Shown: positions 18,319 through 57,672 of the stretch, piece by piece
Position numbering within the stretch: position 1 is the stretch's first letter
How the letters are laid out: each line of letters opens with the position of its first letter
Source: Armatimonadota bacterium
GTDB lineage: Bacteria; Armatimonadota; UBA5829; DTJY01
Direction of reading: 5' to 3'
Assembly: GCA_025358205.1 (NCBI GenBank)
Contig: JANYKG010000017.1
Span: 1-64,000 of the forward strand
DNA length: 64,000 bases
The notes under the pieces: model-generated
Database searches by the model: none
Told to the model about the DNA's origin: nothing
Seen by the model: the letters and a program-made list of their open reading frames with translations, nothing else
Program-made: the position numbers and the translations under genes

Positions 18319-18365
18319 TATTGTTGATCCCATCCACCCCAGCAGCCGCAGGCTGCTAGCCTGCA

Positions 18366-18507
18366 CCATTCACGAGAAACGCGAATAATGCTCTGGAGGC
18401 CCTGGATTATTAGGTTGGCCCGCATTATTCACGAGAAACGTGAATGGCGCTCTGAAGGCCCTGGATTGTTCACTTCGTGAATTATCCAGGCTAGCGAATA
18501 ATCCAGG
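18366..18507 (+). repeat. Family-1 double-hairpin intergenic element, tandem pair (copy A)
   Basis: ACCATTCACGAGAAACGCGAATAATGCTCTGGAGGCCCTGGATTATT then CCGCATTATTCACGAGAAACGTGAATGGCGCTCTGAAGGCCCTGGAT..ATCCAGGCTAG. Confidence 0.7.
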
Positions 18508-27464: not shown

Positions 27465-27569
27465 AATGAATGCCCCCGATAGCGAAATGGCTGATGGCTC
27501 ATGGTCAACGAATAGCGGGCAATTGCCCAAACAACATCAACCATCAACCACCAGCCATAAAAATGAGAA

Positions 27570-27757
27570 ACCCCGCGGATGCCGTGTGCCTAGCAAGCTT
27601 TTGAACCCGTTCAAAACCACGGGCGGATGTCCTCTCGTATGCTTTGCGATTCCCCGTGTTGCTGGGGCTGCCACGTCGGCGTACGAATTAGACTCCTTTA
27701 ATCTTTGAGTGTAGGCTCAAAACTTCTTCAGCGAAGCACGTACACAGCAGGGCTTCT
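27570..27757 (-). ncRNA. ssrS: 6S RNA (RNA polymerase-binding regulatory RNA)
   Basis: On the minus strand: closing stem UGCUGUGU/ACACGGCA; 5' bubble GAAGUUUUGAGCC; apical CCCC..GGGG hairpin; 3' UUUUGAACGGGUUCAAAAGCUUGCUAGGC as in E. coli CCUUGAACCAAGGGUUCAAGG; about 188 nt; directly upstream of rarA. Confidence 0.85.
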
Positions 27758-27769
27758 CCTGAAACCACT

Positions 27770-27833
27770 GGCTTGGACTATTCAGTCCAAGGCCTTCTGA
27801 GCAGCATTCACGCTGTTCGTGAATGCTATGGAC
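27770..27833 (-). repeat. Family-1 double-hairpin intergenic element (copy E)
   Basis: Reverse complement GTCCATAGCATTCACGAACAGCGTGAATGCTGCTCAGAAGGCCTTGGACTGAATAGTCCAAGCC. Confidence 0.75.
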
Positions 27834-27906
27834 TTATTCCCTTGCATGAGTTCATTCTATCACACCTTACCCTTTTTCGCAATCCAGTAATGTTACCTGT
27901 TTCGGT

Positions 27907-37947: not shown

Positions 37948-39816
37948 GTGTATGCCGGGCATGTGCTCGATATCGGAGGTGAAAGTCCTCTACGGTAAAG
38001 GGAGTGAGAACCGTTAAGCGGAGGCAAGGGCGTCACCGTGAGGTGGGGTCTGAAAGAAGCCCGAGCCACAGTCACGACCTGACGAACAGAAACCGGATAG
38101 TAGGCCACAGGCGGTGGGTGAGCTGGCATGAGACGGTGAAACCCTCAACTCCCAAGACCGGCCTGTGGTAAATTCGGCAGGAGCGGGGCGAAAGATCGAG
38201 CGCTTATCCCGGGAGATCTGTCACTCTGTCCGCGTGAGGCGGACTATGCCAGCAGCAATGCAGACAAAAGGAGTGACAGAAGTCAGCAGAGGCCATAGTA
38301 TCCGCGTGATGCGGAGAAGGGCCGAACACGAAGACACAAGGAATCGCCGGAGGAATCGAGGCCGTGGCGGAGCAGAATATCGGACAACCGGCTTTCGACT
38401 ACGATGAGGCGGGTGAAGCCCGGCCTGGGCGTAGTGAAGGGCATCAAGCGGCATCGGCGTCCCCCGAGACGAGAACCTTGGCGCAGAGCCTCATGGAGGC
38501 AGTAGTAGATGCGCGGAACATGCGCGCAGCCCTGAAACGAGTCAGAGAGAACAAGGGAAGCCCAGGAGTAGACGGGGTGACCGTGGATAAGCTCCCGGAG
38601 TACCTTATGGAACACTGGCAGAGAATAAGGGCAGAACTGCTTGATGGTAAGTACAAACCCCAGCCTGTAAGGCGGGTGGAGATACCGAAGCCGGACGGCG
38701 GAGTGCGACAATTGGGCATTCCGACCGTAATGGATAGGTTGATCCAGCAGGCAGTGCTACAGGTACTTGGGCCACTCTACGCCCCCACCTTCTCGGAATC
38801 GAGCTATGGATTCAGACCCGGCAGAAGTGCCCACCAGGCGGTGAGAGCCGCGAGAGAGCACGTAGCGAGCGGAAAGGAATGGGTAGTAGACCTAGACATC
38901 GAGAAGTTCTTCGACCGCGTGAACCACGATATCCTGATGGGCCGTTTAGCACGGCGCATAGGGGATAAGCGTGTGCTAAGGCTGATTCGCGCATATCTGA
39001 ATGCAGGGATCATGGCAGACGGAGTGGTGATAGAGCGGCACGAAGGCACACCACAGGGAGGGCCACTCTCACCGTTACTTGCCAACATACTCCTTGACGA
39101 GTTCGACAAGGAGTTGGAGAAGCGAGGGCACAGGTTCGTAAGATATGCAGATGATTGCAACATCTACGTAGCCACAGAGCGTGCAGGTGAGAGAGTAATG
39201 AAATCGCTCACGCAGTTCCTGGAGAAGAAACTCAGGCTGAAGGTGAACAAGGAGAAATCCGGGGTAGCCAAGCCGAGGGAGCGGAAGTTTCTGGGATTGC
39301 GGATAGTGAAAGGGAAAGAAGCGTTCATAAGCATCGCGCCCAAATCGCTTGAGCGATTCAAGAAGGCAGTGCGGCGTATCACAAAGCGAAACCGAGGAAG
39401 GAGCCTGACCCATGTGATAACGGAACTAAATCGTTACACGACGGGATGGGTGAACTACTTCGGGATTGCAGATGCCAAATCCATCATGCAAAAGCTGGAT
39501 GGATGGATACGCCGTAGACTGAGGTGCTTGATCTGGAAGCAGTGGAAAGGATGGCAAACTCGGGCACATAATCTCCTGAAGGCAGGAGTAGGCCCGTGGC
39601 TGGCCTATGGCATCGTCTCCGGGAAGCATGGGCCGTGGAACGTTGCCGGAAGCCCTGCCATGACGAAAGCCATCACGAATGCGTACCTGAAGCAGCAAGG
39701 CTACAAGAGTCTCTATGAGCGTTACATGACGCTCGCGTCTTCGTGAACCGCCGGATGCGGACCCGCATGTCCGGTGGTGTGGGGGGAGGAGCCGGTGACG
39801 ACTCCTCCTACCCGAT
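37948..39816 (+). mobile_element. Group IIC (bacterial class C) intron with maturase ORF
   Basis: 5' GTGTATGCCGGGCATGTGCTCG resembles the start of class C introns; domain V GAACCGCCGGATGCGGACCCGCATGTCCGGTGGTGT at 39745-39780 with CGC triad; DVI hairpin GGGGGGAGGAGCC..GACTCCTCC and CCTACCCGAT end; inserted after a terminator. Confidence 0.85.
38364..39746 (+). CDS. ltrA: Group II intron reverse transcriptase/maturase
   Basis: FRPGRSAHQAVRAA, GTPQGGPLSPLLANILLDEFD, RYADDCNIYV; maturase X domain; no HNH endonuclease. Confidence 0.95.
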   Translation: MAEQNIGQPAFDYDEAGEARPGRSEGHQAASASPETRTLAQSLMEAVVDARNMRAALKRVRENKGSPGVDGVTVDKLPEYLMEHWQRIRAELLDGKYKPQPVRRVEIPKPDGGVRQLGIPTVMDRLIQQAVLQVLGPLYAPTFSESSYGFRPGRSAHQAVRAAREHVASGKEWVVDLDIEKFFDRVNHDILMGRLARRIGDKRVLRLIRAYLNAGIMADGVVIERHEGTPQGGPLSPLLANILLDEFDKELEKRGHRFVRYADDCNIYVATERAGERVMKSLTQFLEKKLRLKVNKEKSGVAKPRERKFLGLRIVKGKEAFISIAPKSLERFKKAVRRITKRNRGRSLTHVITELNRYTTGWVNYFGIADAKSIMQKLDGWIRRRLRCLIWKQWKGWQTRAHNLLKAGVGPWLAYGIVSGKHGPWNVAGSPAMTKAITNAYLKQQGYKSLYERYMTLASS

Positions 39817-42073: not shown

Positions 42074-42175
42074 CGCGCCGCCGGACAAAGCCTGACCTGT
42101 AGCCGCAGGCTTTATGCCTGCGAGGTCAGACCGCACCCGTAAAGGGTGCGGCTACAGGCTCTATCCGATCCCTAA
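42072..42175. repeat. Family-2 palindromic element (degenerate ends)
   Basis: TGTAGCCGCAGGCTTTATGCCTGCGAGGTCAGACCGCACCCGTAAAGGGTGCGGCTACAGGCTCTATCCGAT, near-identical to the core at 11051-11121. Confidence 0.7.
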
Positions 42176-42183
42176 CTCATCGT

Positions 42184-42254
42184 GATCATTCACGAATAAC
42201 GTGAATAACCCCCAGAATGAACTTAACCACGCAGGAAATTCGTCATACAGGCTA
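42184..42254 (+). repeat. Degenerate family-1 element
   Basis: ATTCACGAATAACGTGAATAA...CCCAGAA...ACAGGCTAG between tonB and ruvC. Confidence 0.45.
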
Positions 42255-42291
42255 GAATGTCCCATGTATAACCACGGGATCGGAGCGCGGA

Positions 42292-48512: not shown

Positions 48513-49649
48513 ATGGCAACCAGAGATATCAGCCACGCATCACTCGCGATCAAACAGAACTGCACCGTTCGGCGTGAGGAGTATCTGGACTACATGACCT
48601 TCCAGGCGAACGCGAGGCCGCTGTTCACCGAGATATTCGGTCCGCTGATCGGCCTCAAGGAGGAGTGGGCGGAGCAGGGCGCTTTGCCTGAAGAACTGGA
48701 TTTATCAGCGTTCGAGTACCGCTGTCCCATGCGCGCGGGCGTGCCGGTCCACACCGGCTGGGTGGGCGGCGATCCGGAGCAGGTGCTTGAGGAGACGGAT
48801 GACTACCGCATCACCCGCGACGCCAGGGGTCGCACGATGAAACTCTGCAAGGGGTTCGCGACACTCCCGCTTCCGCTCGATCATCCTGTGAAGAACATGG
48901 ATGACTGGCTGAAGCTCAAGCCGCGATACGAGTTCTCGGAAGACCGTTTCAGCAAGGACTGGGAGCAGACCGCCCGGGCGCATCAGCAGGCGGGGCGTTC
49001 ACTTACCGTCGGCATCCCCGGCGGGTTCGACGAACCGAGGCAACTCATGGGCGAGGAGGAGCTATGCGTGTCGTTCTACACTCAGCCGGAGCTGATCCAC
49101 GATATCCTGCAAACCATCGGCGACACGGCGATGAAGGCGCTTGATAGAGTGTCTTCGGTCGTGCAGGTGGACGAGTTGAGCGTGCATGAGGACCTGGCCG
49201 GTAAGAGCGGTCCGTTGGTCGGCCCCAGCCAGATCGAGGAATTCATCAAGCCCTACTATCGGCGAGTGTGGGACATGCTGCAGAACAGGGGTGCGCGGCT
49301 CTTCAGCCAGGATTCCGACGGCAACATGAACCCGGTGATAGACGCGTTTGTGGATGCCGGGATCAACGTGATGTACCCCATGGAACCTGCGTCCGGCATG
49401 GACATTGTGAAGGTCCGCGAGGCTTACGGCGCCAGGCTCGCGTTCTGGGGCGGGATTGACAAGCACGTGATCAGGCGCACCAAAGAAGAGATTGAGGCCG
49501 AACTGGAGTACAAGATTCCGCTAATGGTGCGCACAGGCGGATGCATCCTCGGCCTCGACCACCGCATCCCGAACGGCACGCCGCTGGAGAACTACCGCTT
49601 CTACATCCGCAAGGCCTGGGAGATTCTGAATCGCGAGGTAGGGTCGTAG
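48513..49649 (+). CDS. Uroporphyrinogen decarboxylase (URO-D)-like protein
   Basis: VVQVDELSVHEDLAGKSGPLVGPSQIEEFIKPYYRRVWDML; ALRLAFWGGIDKHVIRRTKEEIEAELEYKIPLM-like region; GTPLENYRFYIRKAWE. Confidence 0.85.
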   Translation: MATRDISHASLAIKQNCTVRREEYLDYMTFQANARPLFTEIFGPLIGLKEEWAEQGALPEELDLSAFEYRCPMRAGVPVHTGWVGGDPEQVLEETDDYRITRDARGRTMKLCKGFATLPLPLDHPVKNMDDWLKLKPRYEFSEDRFSKDWEQTARAHQQAGRSLTVGIPGGFDEPRQLMGEEELCVSFYTQPELIHDILQTIGDTAMKALDRVSSVVQVDELSVHEDLAGKSGPLVGPSQIEEFIKPYYRRVWDMLQNRGARLFSQDSDGNMNPVIDAFVDAGINVMYPMEPASGMDIVKVREAYGARLAFWGGIDKHVIRRTKEEIEAELEYKIPLMVRTGGCILGLDHRIPNGTPLENYRFYIRKAWEILNREVGS

Positions 49650-49709
49650 CGGAATGAACTGATCGGACTTGCACTTTTTCACAAAAAACGTGCATAATAT
49701 CGGAAGAGC

Positions 49710-49784
49710 AAGCCTGCGCTATCCCCAAGTGCATAGCGCAGGGCCTTCTGAGCATTGTTCACGAACTTCGTGAACAATGCGGAC
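49710..49784 (-). repeat. Family-1 double-hairpin intergenic element (copy B)
   Basis: Reverse complement GTCCGCATTGTTCACGAAGTTCGTGAACAATGCTCAGAAGGCCCTGCGCTATGCACTTGGGGATAGCGCAGGCT. Confidence 0.8.
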
Positions 49785-49809
49785 CAGTTCGGTCGGAGGA
49801 AGAACGGTT

Positions 49810-50247
49810 TTGTGCAAAATACTTGTTGTGGATGACGAAGAGCAGGTGAGGGCGGCGATTCAGCGACGACTGCAGCGTGAGGGCTACAAGGTTGATGCGG
49901 TAGCGGGCGAGGCGGAGGCGGTCGAGCGCATTCAGAACGCTGACCCCCACTACGATATCGTGCTGACCGATATGGTTATGGAAGACCCGGACAGCGGTGT
50001 TAAGATACTTCAGACCGCGTTTGCCGAGGACATCTTTACCGAGGTTCTGGTGCTCACTGCATACGGCAACGTGGCCAACGCTGTGGAGTGCATGAAGCGC
50101 GGCGCGTTCGACTACGTGGAGAAGAACATCCCCGGCGTGGACGTGTACGAGCTGATGAGCCTGAAGGTCGCGCAGGCAATGGACCGGCGGCGCTCGTCCG
50201 TCAGCACTGCCCGCCGACTGGATGGAATAGGCCGATCCCTACGCTGA
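49810..50247 (+). CDS. Receiver-domain response regulator (TTG start with GGAGGA upstream)
   Basis: KILVVDDEEQVRAAIQRRLQREGYKV; IVLTDMVME; VLVLTAYGNVANAVECMKRGAFDYVEK. Confidence 0.92.
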   Translation: MCKILVVDDEEQVRAAIQRRLQREGYKVDAVAGEAEAVERIQNADPHYDIVLTDMVMEDPDSGVKILQTAFAEDIFTEVLVLTAYGNVANAVECMKRGAFDYVEKNIPGVDVYELMSLKVAQAMDRRRSSVSTARRLDGIGRSLR

Positions 50248-50287
50248 TGCCTCTCGGTATTTTCTGAACGACGGAACCACAATCCCT

Positions 50288-50365
50288 GGTCCGCATTATT
50301 CACAAATTTCGTGAATAATGCTCAGAAGGCCCTGCATGATGCGGGGATCGCATAATGCAGGCTAG
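50288..50365 (+). repeat. Family-1 double-hairpin intergenic element (copy C)
   Basis: GGTCCGCATTATTCACAAATTTCGTGAATAATGCTCAGAAGGCCCTGCATGATGCGGGGATCGCATAATGCAGGCTAG. Confidence 0.8.
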
Positions 50366-50374
50366 GAGTGACAC

Positions 50375-52222
50375 ATGCCGTTGCGCCTGCTCGCCGGACC
50401 CGTCGGAAGCGGCAAGACCACATGCCTGCTGGATACCTTCAAGCGGTTTTCGCCCGCGGAGAGTCTGTCGTCCGTGCGACTTGTGACGCCCAACCTCAGC
50501 CACGCTCGGCGAGTGCGCAAGACTCTGCTTTCAGACCCCGCTTTTCCGGGTTTCTTCGGCGATACCGTGCTGAGCATGCACGGGTTTGCGTCGGAGATCA
50601 TCAGGCTGTCCGGCCTCAATGCGCCTGGTATAGCCGGGGAGTCTGCGCGCACGCTCTTGCTGCAGCGAGTGATTAGCGAACGATGCCCGCCGTGCTTTGA
50701 GTCCGTGCGCTCTACCCCAGGATTCTCCGATGTGATGGTCCGAGCGATCAGCCTGCTGAAGCAGTCGGGCGTGCTCACGGATTATCTGCGCGTTGCGGTT
50801 GAATCTGCTCCCCATCTGCCAGCGCATTCTCGCGAGAAGCTGACGGGGGTCGCTGAAGTTTATGCGTCCTTCCAGACCGCGCTTGAGGCGTCCGGCCTTG
50901 GCGAATCGGACGATATTCTTCGCCTTGCTTTTTCTGCTGGGTCACCTTTCAAGCTCGTGCTGTTCGACGGGTGTACGCGCTTCAGTCCGCTTGAACGGGA
51001 GTTGATGGCCAAACTCGCTCAGGATTCTGATGTCATCGTCGCGCTGGACAGCGATGATACCGGGCGGTATGCAGAGGCGGAATCGGCGATCCGATTCTTC
51101 GCTCAGTTGCCGGACACAACTATCGAGCGGATGGCTTCTCGACGCACGGAGTCAGGCCTGACTCATCTCGCGCGGTCTGGCTTCGTTCCTTCCGCAGAGG
51201 CCATACCACCCGACGATACGGTAACGGTATTCAATGCGGCGGATCGGCGGTTGGAGACGGAGATGGTCGCGCGAGAGATCAGGCGGCTGAACCGTGACGG
51301 TTTCGCGTGGCAAGAGATCGCGGTGGTTTGCCGTGGCTCGCGGGAGAGGCAGCGCGTGTCCGGCATCATGCGCGAGTACGGCATCCCGATAGCGGAGGAG
51401 TACCTGCCGCTCAGTTCGTCGCCGCTGGTGTCGCGAATGCTGAGGTTGATGGACGGCATGGAACCTCAGTCTGCTCTCGACACCGCGCTGAGTGACACAC
51501 CTCCGCCAACCGACGAACGCGCCTTGCGGGAGTACAATGCAGCGCACAGGGCGATCAGGCGCATCATTGATGACATGCCGAACGCTCCCGCCGAGGATAT
51601 CGCCCGGTTGGTAAGGTCCACGGTCGAGAGTCGCGACTACCGGATGCCCGGCTCAGCCGAAGACGGCATCTGCATAACCAACCCGATCGGGATCGCGGGC
51701 CGGACGTTCCGCGCGGTGTTCGTGACCGGCCTCAGGGACGGCGTATTTCCGCGCGTGCCTGCCGAAGACCCCATTGTCAGCTACCGCGAGCGTGCGGCGT
51801 TGAATGCGGTTCTGCCTCATCCACTGACTGTACGAGCAGACGAAGAGCAGGCCGAGTGCGCGGCCTTTGTCTCCTGCGCAACCTCTGCATTGGACAAACT
51901 GTACCTGTGCGTGGATACCCAATCGTCTTTTCTTGATCAGGCTGAACGGCTATTTACCATGCCTTTGCCGATGCGCGAGGCGCTTGCTGCAGACATTCTC
52001 CCGACGCTTGGTGAGGCTGAAACCCTCCACGAGACCATCGCGCGGACCGTCCACGATTCGGTTGCCGGCGAAGACATCAATGCCGCCGCGACCGCCTACA
52101 ACGCGCTGATTCAGGCAGGCGCTTTTCAGCCCGATGTGTTCAGATGGATGGGCAGAGACTACTCACAGCCCGTGCCTGCCTACCTTCGAGTCCTCACGGG
52201 GTGGCCGGAGGTGTCCGAATGA
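50375..52222 (+). CDS. AddB/RexB-like P-loop protein (ends before any nuclease domain)
   Basis: LLAGPVGSGKTTCLLDTFKRF (Walker A); LVLFDGCTRFSPLERELMAKLA; FRAVFVTGLRDGVFPRVPAEDP. Confidence 0.75.
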   Translation: MPLRLLAGPVGSGKTTCLLDTFKRFSPAESLSSVRLVTPNLSHARRVRKTLLSDPAFPGFFGDTVLSMHGFASEIIRLSGLNAPGIAGESARTLLLQRVISERCPPCFESVRSTPGFSDVMVRAISLLKQSGVLTDYLRVAVESAPHLPAHSREKLTGVAEVYASFQTALEASGLGESDDILRLAFSAGSPFKLVLFDGCTRFSPLERELMAKLAQDSDVIVALDSDDTGRYAEAESAIRFFAQLPDTTIERMASRRTESGLTHLARSGFVPSAEAIPPDDTVTVFNAADRRLETEMVAREIRRLNRDGFAWQEIAVVCRGSRERQRVSGIMREYGIPIAEEYLPLSSSPLVSRMLRLMDGMEPQSALDTALSDTPPPTDERALREYNAAHRAIRRIIDDMPNAPAEDIARLVRSTVESRDYRMPGSAEDGICITNPIGIAGRTFRAVFVTGLRDGVFPRVPAEDPIVSYRERAALNAVLPHPLTVRADEEQAECAAFVSCATSALDKLYLCVDTQSSFLDQAERLFTMPLPMREALAADILPTLGEAETLHETIARTVHDSVAGEDINAAATAYNALIQAGAFQPDVFRWMGRDYSQPVPAYLRVLTGWPEVSE

Positions 52223-55271: not shown

Positions 55272-56225
55272 TTGACGCTTGAAGAACAATTCTTCCGACT
55301 GATCAAGACCCTGCAGCTTATCGAACGCGAACCCGGAGAGTGGGACGCCGCCGCGCTGGAGGTCGAGTTCAACGTCGGCCACGCCACGGTCGAGCGGGAC
55401 ATCCGCATACTGAGGCAGTGGGGCACCATCGAGCGCAAGAAGGGCTGCTTTGTCGTCAAGGACATGAAGTTCATGCCGCGCAACTTCACCTCCAGTGAGA
55501 CCCTCGCGCTGGTGCTGGCCGGGAGCATGATCGCCAGCCGCATCGAGATGCCGCCGTCCGACTCCCTCCGCAGCGCGATGAAGAAGATTGACTCCGTGCT
55601 GCCGGAGCAGGTTGATACCATGATCCGCCGAATGCAGAAGCGCTTCTCTATCGGCGTGGACCTAGTCCGTGAGTGCAACTCCGAAATCCTGAACTCCATC
55701 AGCAAGGCGGTTTCGAGTCACCGAACCGTTGAAATATCCTACTACGTGCCGGGTCGCAACGAGATCACCAGGCGCAAGGTTGACCCTTACGGTCTGACCT
55801 TCCGATTCGGCACTTGGTATGTAATAGGCTACTGCCACCTGCGCGACGGGGTGCGCACGTTTGCCGTGGACAGGGTGAAGAGCCTGAAGACCACGCAAAA
55901 GCGCTTTGTGTATCCGGGCGATTTCCACCTGGAGGAGTATCTGGAGCGCGGTTGGCGGCTGCAGGCGAACGCGGAACCGGAACACATAGTCCTGCGTTTT
56001 TCACCCGCGATAGCCCCGCTGATAATGGAGTGCAAGTTCCATCCGCATCAGAAGCTGACACTGCAGGATGATGGGGCGGCGCTGTTCGAGGTCACCGTCG
56101 CTGGGGTTGACGAGATCAAGCACTGGGTGCTGGGATACGGTGACAAGGTGGAAGTCATCGGCCCGCAGAGCCTTCGCGATTCCGTGGCAGCCACCGCACG
56201 AAACATGGCCGCAGTATACTCCTAG
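55272..56225 (+). CDS. HTH + WYL-domain transcriptional regulator (TTG start)
   Basis: ALEVEFNVGHATVERDIRILRQWG; VEISYYVPGRNEITRRKVDPYGLTFRFGTWYVIGYCHLRDGVRTFAVDRVKSLK. Confidence 0.92.
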   Translation: MTLEEQFFRLIKTLQLIEREPGEWDAAALEVEFNVGHATVERDIRILRQWGTIERKKGCFVVKDMKFMPRNFTSSETLALVLAGSMIASRIEMPPSDSLRSAMKKIDSVLPEQVDTMIRRMQKRFSIGVDLVRECNSEILNSISKAVSSHRTVEISYYVPGRNEITRRKVDPYGLTFRFGTWYVIGYCHLRDGVRTFAVDRVKSLKTTQKRFVYPGDFHLEEYLERGWRLQANAEPEHIVLRFSPAIAPLIMECKFHPHQKLTLQDDGAALFEVTVAGVDEIKHWVLGYGDKVEVIGPQSLRDSVAATARNMAAVYS

Positions 56226-56301
56226 TCCACATTATTCACAAAGAGCATGAATGATGCTCAGAAGGCCGCGGATTATGCGGGACGTGCATAATCCGCGCTA
56301 G
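56223..56301 (+). repeat. Family-1 double-hairpin intergenic element (copy D)
   Basis: TAGTCCACATTATTCACAAAGAGCATGAATGATGCTCAGAAGGCCGCGGATTATGCGGGACGTGCATAATCCGCGCTAG; begins at the WYL stop codon. Confidence 0.75.
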
Positions 56302-56309
56302 AGGTAAAT

Positions 56310-57488
56310 ATGAAACACACACTCGCTATGCTGGTTCCTATACTGCTGAGCTTCGCGCTCACTTCCGCCGCCAACGCCGGGGTCACTACCGGACGCAGGC
56401 TCTTCAGGTTCCAGAACAAGTCGGACTTCCGCGGCTTCGAGATCTCAGGCGCGCGCTGGGATGCCGACGCTGGCGGTATGGTCTTCCAGCCCCAGGGCGC
56501 GCAGACCGATGAGTCCAGCAGCATCCCTTACGGTATGGTGGAGTCGCCGGTTGTCAAGATCGGCTTCCCGACCGACGAATTTGTGCTTTCCTGGAACGCG
56601 ATCACCCCGCCGGAGAGCTTCTGCACCGTCTACATCCAGGTTCGATCCAAAGGGTTCTGGAGCCGCAAGTTCGCCTACGCGATCTGGAACCGCGACAAAA
56701 AGCCGGTCCAGCGCATGACGATGACGAAGGTTGAGGACGACCTGGCGAGTCTGGAGCAGGACATCCTGACCATGAAGACCCAGGCGGATGCTTTCCGCGT
56801 CTCCGTGAAGCTCTCATCGCGCGACGGCAAGACCTATCCCACACTTCGCATGCTTACGGTTCACTGCCTCAGCCGCACCGTCGCAGGCCCCAGGACTCGC
56901 ATAAACAAGGCTGTGTGGGGGACCGACCTCGATGTGCCGCAGCGTTCGCAGCTCACCGTGCCTGAGGGGAACCGCTTCTGCAGTGCGACCTGCTCGTCCA
57001 TGGATTTGGAGTATTGGGCGCACAAGTTGAACAGGCCGGAGCTGAACATACCGCTTCAGCAGGCGGTGGATGGCATATATGATTATGAAGCAGGTGGCAC
57101 CGGCACGTGGCCGTTCAACACCGCGTTTGCCGGGGAGTTCGGCGGACTGCGCGCATTAGTCACCCGGCTGGCGAGCATGGCCGACGCCGAGCGGTGGATA
57201 GCCAAAGGTGTGCCAGTCATCCTCAGCATTGACCACAACGTGCTGCGCGGAACCCCGCAGGCGGGGCGCGGCGGGCATCTCATCCTGCTGCGGGGCTTTG
57301 ACAAGAACGGCGACTGCATCATCAACGATCCCTACACGTTCCTGGACAAGGGCGAGGTAGTGCGTAGGGTCTTCAATCGCAAGCTCGTGACGGACGCCTG
57401 GATCGGCGATTTCCAATCGAGCGGCACGGCGTACATCATGTACCCGGACGGCTGGGACGTTCCACGGAACAGCATCGGTAACTGGTAG
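56310..57488 (+). CDS. Secreted C39-family (papain-like) peptidase
   Basis: Signal peptide; NRFCSATCSSMDLEYW, GGHLILLRGFDKNGDCIINDPY. Confidence 0.8.
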   Translation: MKHTLAMLVPILLSFALTSAANAGVTTGRRLFRFQNKSDFRGFEISGARWDADAGGMVFQPQGAQTDESSSIPYGMVESPVVKIGFPTDEFVLSWNAITPPESFCTVYIQVRSKGFWSRKFAYAIWNRDKKPVQRMTMTKVEDDLASLEQDILTMKTQADAFRVSVKLSSRDGKTYPTLRMLTVHCLSRTVAGPRTRINKAVWGTDLDVPQRSQLTVPEGNRFCSATCSSMDLEYWAHKLNRPELNIPLQQAVDGIYDYEAGGTGTWPFNTAFAGEFGGLRALVTRLASMADAERWIAKGVPVILSIDHNVLRGTPQAGRGGHLILLRGFDKNGDCIINDPYTFLDKGEVVRRVFNRKLVTDAWIGDFQSSGTAYIMYPDGWDVPRNSIGNW

Positions 57489-57672
57489 CATGCATTATGC
57501 TTTTCCGCATAATGCGTGGCATTCAGATCGTCGTTCGCGAAGAGGGCGAACAATGTGGGGGTGAGCGCTATACAATGCCGAGTCGCCCGGCTGTAAGGAA
57601 ATGATTTAATTTTCCCCTCCATCGTGGAAATATAGTATAGAGACCGATTCTAGCAAAACAGGATTTCGACGG

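Follow-up and report, generated by a model that had tools for sequence, protein, structure and literature searches.

A dispersed double-hairpin repeat of Armatimonadota genomes is very probably an IS1380-dependent MITE

The stretch of DNA analysed here (the window; 64,000 nucleotides from an Armatimonadota draft genome of 200 contigs, referred to as G000) carries, just upstream of an AddB-like gene, a short gene-free element with one palindrome at each end. The CTAG on the right side of this focal copy directly adjoins the GAG of a ribosome-binding-site-like GGAG, and the ATG of the AddB-like gene (50375) lies 9 nt past the end of the CTAG. No intrinsic terminator, in the form of a hairpin followed by a T run, is found within positions 49600-50450 of the window. 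The original prediction placed five full copies of the element in the window together with some degenerate traces. A covariance model based on 25 copies recovers all five full copies, with E-values from 2e-20 to 3e-14, and the traces prove to be real but weak (Table 1). The stretch 18366-18507, described at first as a tandem, is in fact a nested insertion (18356-18507) in which one copy sits inside hairpin 2 of another. In addition, the minus-strand copy with a shortened hairpin 2 stops ~15 bp upstream of the 5' end of a predicted 6S RNA (27566-27756, minus strand; Rfam RF00013, 64.6 bits), at the place where the 6S promoter would be expected. The window also contains a group II intron (38032-39816, plus strand) whose RNA domains enclose a 460-aa ORF.

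Table 1. Copies of the element and parts of the focal copy in the window
Feature	Position	Strand	Evidence
Focal copy	50290..50361	+	covariance-model match 50283-50365, 92.7 bits
Focal copy, left end YCCGCATTATTCAC within hairpin 1	about 50293-50321	+	
Focal copy, linker TCAGAAGGC between hairpins 1 and 2		+	
Focal copy, hairpin 2, holding the right end	about 50331-50361	+	
Focal copy, left target duplication CTGG (degenerate YTAR)	50286..50289	+	sequence
Focal copy, right target duplication CTAG	50362..50365	+	sequence
Copy with flanks, right flank eroded	49709..49790	-	covariance model, 85.9 bits
Copy of the CGCGG subtype, CTAG on both sides	56219..56301	+	covariance model, 87.0 bits
Older interrupted copy, 5' part (CTAG, hairpin 1, linker, first arm of hairpin 2)	18356..18411	+	covariance-model match 18353-18409, E 1.2e-6
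Second copy, inserted in hairpin 2 of the older copy, plus CTAG	18419..18494	+	covariance-model match 18412-18494, 83.5 bits
Interrupted copy, leftover 3' arm CGAATAATCCAGG of hairpin 2	18495..18507	+	
Copy with shortened hairpin 2	27772..27832	-	covariance-model match 27768-27839
Decayed copy	57485..57566	-	covariance-model match, E 2e-8
Strongly decayed trace	42173..42255	+	covariance-model match, E 6e-4

The copies in the window belong to a much larger population. A covariance-model scan of the whole genome finds at least 150 copies in G000, in agreement with the dispersed family originally proposed, and the 14-mer of the linker between the two hairpins occurs 22 times genome-wide, against 0 for a reversed-pattern control. 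Within the window, an 11-mer of the linker with one mismatch allowed is mildly enriched (5 found, 1.7 expected). Among 28 genomes of the class, only three carry the element: G000 itself, G008, which belongs to a different family and has at least 143 copies by the same kind of scan, and G006, a congener of G008 with 4 copies only. No copy is found in the other 25 genomes, which include four of G000's own family. Outside the class, the hairpin-1 pattern matches only in a Cyclobacteriaceae and an Anaerolineales MAG, and the latter (L138) is a true relative, with the same architecture and a different linker. The exact linker pattern has no match among 84,980 species genomes beyond the window's own genome record, the hairpin-1 pattern is absent from IMG/VR, and the plasmids searched gave no match. 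This patchy distribution, with three of 28 class genomes and an Anaerolineales MAG as carriers, suggests horizontal arrival of the element followed by bursts.

The element is ~72 bp long, and its consensus reads, in order, YTAR, YCCGCATTATTCACGA-loop-CGTGAATAATG, CTCAGAAGGC, CCTGSATTATKC-loop-GMATAATSCAGG and YTAR. When the boundary is placed after YTAR, the outer ends are imperfect inverted repeats, YCCGCATTATTCACGA on the left and CCTGSATTATKCAYGA on the right, and the terminal inverted repeats expected of a miniature inverted-repeat transposable element (MITE) are thereby present as YCCGCATTATTCAC and CCTGSATTATKC. Inward of each terminal repeat lies its reverse complement, so that either end forms a perfect or near-perfect palindrome (hairpins 1 and 2). 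In both stems 95-97% of the cells are paired, and paired changes are far above those in shuffles and slid controls. The stem of hairpin 2 had been said to change completely between copies while its pairing is kept. The pairing is indeed kept, but there is no complete change, only a few subtypes (CCTGGATTATTC, CCTGCATTATGC and CGCGGATTATGC) that differ at 3-4 positions and in the loop. Similarly, the linker, reported as near-invariant, is well repeated in G000 but proves to be lineage-specific, reading CTCTCRGAGACC in one further genome and TCCCCGGAAG in yet another. The loops of hairpin 2 occur in both orientations within similar stems, and the loop of hairpin 1 is inverted too in two G008 copies; examples of such inverted loops are GCGGGACATGC and GCATGTCCCGC or GAGGAAC and GTTCCTC. 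In both G008 and G000 the loops look as if hairpins had been flipped. Near a contig end of G000 (C134:20-146, L116), two overlapping copies stand head to head and have hairpin 2 in common, forming a composite palindrome.

The CTAG ends, originally counted as part of the element, are better described as a 4-bp target repeated on both sides, since copies are flanked by a direct repeat of YTAR type (CTAG, TTAG, CTAA or TTAA). The same 4-mer is present on both sides in 26 of 41 copies in G008 (against 8.8 on average and 16 at most in 1000 shuffles) and in three of four copies in G006. In G000, identical flanks are seen in 18 of 85 copies against 12.4 by shuffling (shuffle maximum 20), a weak excess that is attributable to its older and more diverged copies, whose mean pairwise identity is 0.79 compared with 0.87 in G008. 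Because flanks are identical even when they depart from the consensus (TACA/TACA and TATA/TATA, and in G006 TTTA/TTTA and TTCA/TTCA), the 4-mer is not a fixed part of the element. Moreover, an orthologous intergenic spacer of G006 lacks the element: where G008 reads CATTACCT-CTAA-element-CTAG-CTCATGCTTG, G006 reads CATTACCT-12 nt-AAGCTCATGCTTG. Both flanks align, and since the 12 nt at the junction are unrelated sequence, the G006 site is not a clean empty site. At a second tested site the match is one-sided, being exact up to the base before CTAG and absent past the element. Some neighbouring copies have one CTAG in common. Taken together, the target duplications, the nested copies and the empty site show that the element has been mobile. 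Both orientations occur, as was claimed, and almost all copies, rather than all of them, are intergenic (60 of 65 copies for G000, 34 of 37 for G008, with ~86% of the DNA coding according to crude gene calls).

The source of this mobility is indicated by a comparison of 29 IS1380 loci in relatives from the class and the phylum with 26 loci of other transposases. The combination of YTAR and the terminal-repeat motif occurs 15 times in the IS1380 loci, where 0.1 is expected, and once in the other loci, where the single match lies in a remnant of the repeat under study. In one complete IS1380 element (L140), CTAG-CCCGGATTATTCATAA on the left and TTCATGAATAATCCAGG-CTAG on the right enclose a DDE transposase of 445 aa (NF033539 at 6.7e-103, PF13701 at 4.5e-127); its right end is CCAGG followed by CTAG and reads, inward from the right, CTAG and then CCTGGATTATTCATGA. 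The match between the ends of the repeat and those of IS1380 spans 12-16 bp plus the target. IS1380-family insertion sequences (DDE_Tnp_1_4, NF033539) thus share with the element the terminal repeats CCYGSATTATKCATGA and a flanking YTAR (CTAG, TTAG or CTAA), whereas the element is gene-free, 72 bp long and palindromic at each end, and its internal palindrome arms are absent from the ends of full IS1380 elements. Since both its ends and its target match full IS1380 transposons, the element is very probably a non-autonomous, IS1380-dependent MITE of ~72 bp, mobilised in trans by an IS1380-family DDE transposase. The suggestion of a MITE-like element moved in trans is therefore borne out by the terminal repeats, the YTAR duplication and the IS1380-matching ends.

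Mechanistically, an IS1380 transposase would recognise both terminal inverted repeats, that is, the outer arms of two palindromic ends joined by a short lineage-specific linker, and would direct insertion to a YTAR tetranucleotide, whose 4 bp would end up duplicated on each side. PF13701, the profile of the IS1380 transposase, has no match in the draft assemblies of the carriers G000, G008 and G006, from which multicopy insertion sequences may be missing. Enzyme and element were never found together in one genome, and we therefore infer from the shared ends that an IS1380 transposase moved these copies. The lack of an IS1380 gene in the carrier assemblies could mean either that the copies are orphaned or that the insertion sequence was lost in assembly, as a multicopy insertion sequence could be in a draft of 200 contigs such as G000. 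An orphan MITE does not need an IS1380 gene in its own genome, whose presence would have been further support. The copies in G000 now appear to be mostly old and are perhaps orphaned.

The same lack of an IS1380 gene might favour another DDE family with YTAR-like targets as the mover of the MITE, as families such as IS701 or IS5 also give short YTAR/YTAN duplications. This reading is very improbable in view of a match to IS1380 that extends over 12-16 bp in addition to the target. Candidate movers of this kind were sought and rejected: no IS701 (DDE_5) gene is present in the four genomes searched, and genes with DDE_Tnp_1 (IS4/IS5/ISAs1) are absent from G000, while those of G008 and G006 are without the element's ends; the single DDE_Tnp_1 gene of G008 is presumably ISAs1-like. 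The original prediction drew a link to REP/RAYT systems of the IS200/IS605 type, in which the copies would be REP/BIME-type elements moved single-stranded by a Y1 tyrosine transposase (RAYT). Like the REP/BIME elements of such systems, which are paired inverted palindromes, intergenic and high in copy number, the element has a pair of inversely arranged hairpins with conserved tetranucleotides at the feet, and many intergenic copies, and G000 contains three Y1_Tnp genes. However, the 4-mers on its two sides duplicate each other directly and differ in concert from copy to copy, and to our knowledge Y1 tyrosine transposases make no direct target duplications. The earlier statement that no RAYT gene lies in the window agrees with the present analysis, and none of the three Y1 genes has a full copy beside it, only a 34-bp remnant near one of them; in addition, Y1 genes are also present in relatives without the element. 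With its target duplication, its ends matching those of IS1380 transposons and no RAYT association, the element differs from REP/BIME in ways that make a Y1-driven origin very improbable.

A structured RNA family, either cis-regulatory or consisting of small RNAs, with stems co-varying under selection, had been offered as another explanation, and the high pairing and covariation far in excess of shuffles would fit it, although a DNA palindrome would give the same pattern. It also gains from the orientation of the copies in G000, where copies co-directional with both neighbours number 26 against 11 (p 0.02), and where 23 right ends, compared with 8 left ends, face a ribosome-binding site with its start codon no more than 30 bp away, the latter comparison relying on crude gene calls and being one of several tests in one genome. 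In contrast, G008 shows neither the co-directional bias nor the bias of the right end towards ribosome-binding sites, and both orientations of the element occur. There is no Rfam match at the element, the linkers of G000 and G008 differ, the loops are found in both orientations, and the target duplications, nested copies and empty site all show mobility. An RNA family is thus highly improbable, and it is not needed either, as the paired changes, though real, are also expected where the ends of a transposon are palindromic DNA. For an IS1380-dependent MITE, these changes would stem from palindrome-level correction together with selection on the binding of the transposase rather than from a function as RNA, and the inverted loops seem more readily explained by DNA palindrome events than by RNA selection. 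The orientation bias towards ribosome-binding sites in G000 is a weak lead. One conceivable but rather unlikely account is that, after the element had spread, copies were retained in a fixed orientation just upstream of ribosome-binding sites, where they would now serve as 5' leader hairpins whose effect depends on their orientation and which modulate the expression of many genes, an AddAB-like nuclease operon among them.

MITEs are well known, and we regard the present repeats as a new family within this known class. No IS1380-derived MITE was identified in the literature searched, and as this literature was largely without subscription papers, we do not claim the first MITE derived from IS1380. 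A 2024 review of prokaryotic MITEs never mentions IS1380 (PMC10969869). The prokaryotic MITEs QMITE, Chunjie, ERIC, RUP and RPE are likewise short and gene-free, with many copies, terminal repeats and target duplication (PMC10969869), whereas the parent of the present element would be IS1380. One member of the IS1380 family, ISEcp1, spreads beta-lactamase genes (PMC9330008). The family is also distantly related to piggyBac (PMC10140906), whose superfamily makes 4-bp target duplications of TTAA type, with the variants TTAG and CTAA, and has ends that mostly start with CCC (PMC10813416). The eukaryotic piggyBac shares such TTAA-type 4-bp duplications with the element, a likeness of target and ends. 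Dispersed double-hairpin repeats, which could readily be taken for REP elements or for RNAs, can thereby be tied to a named transposase family. Moreover, the element has burst separately in two genomes, each time to at least 140 copies, and a congener of one of these has just 4, which makes target choice, burst size and orientation bias countable.

A search for single-hairpin minimal elements, as a possible ancestral form, yielded isolated candidates only, together with the 34-bp remnant mentioned above. The latter (L024, positions 1998-2031) is a single-hairpin remnant or minimal form, consisting of TCCGCATTATTCACAAGCGAATAATCCAGG followed by CTAG, and lies beside a Y1 transposase gene. This locus and L023, on a different contig, carry two near-identical Y1 transposase genes with similar flanks (around 1207-2004), which represent a separate repeat system.
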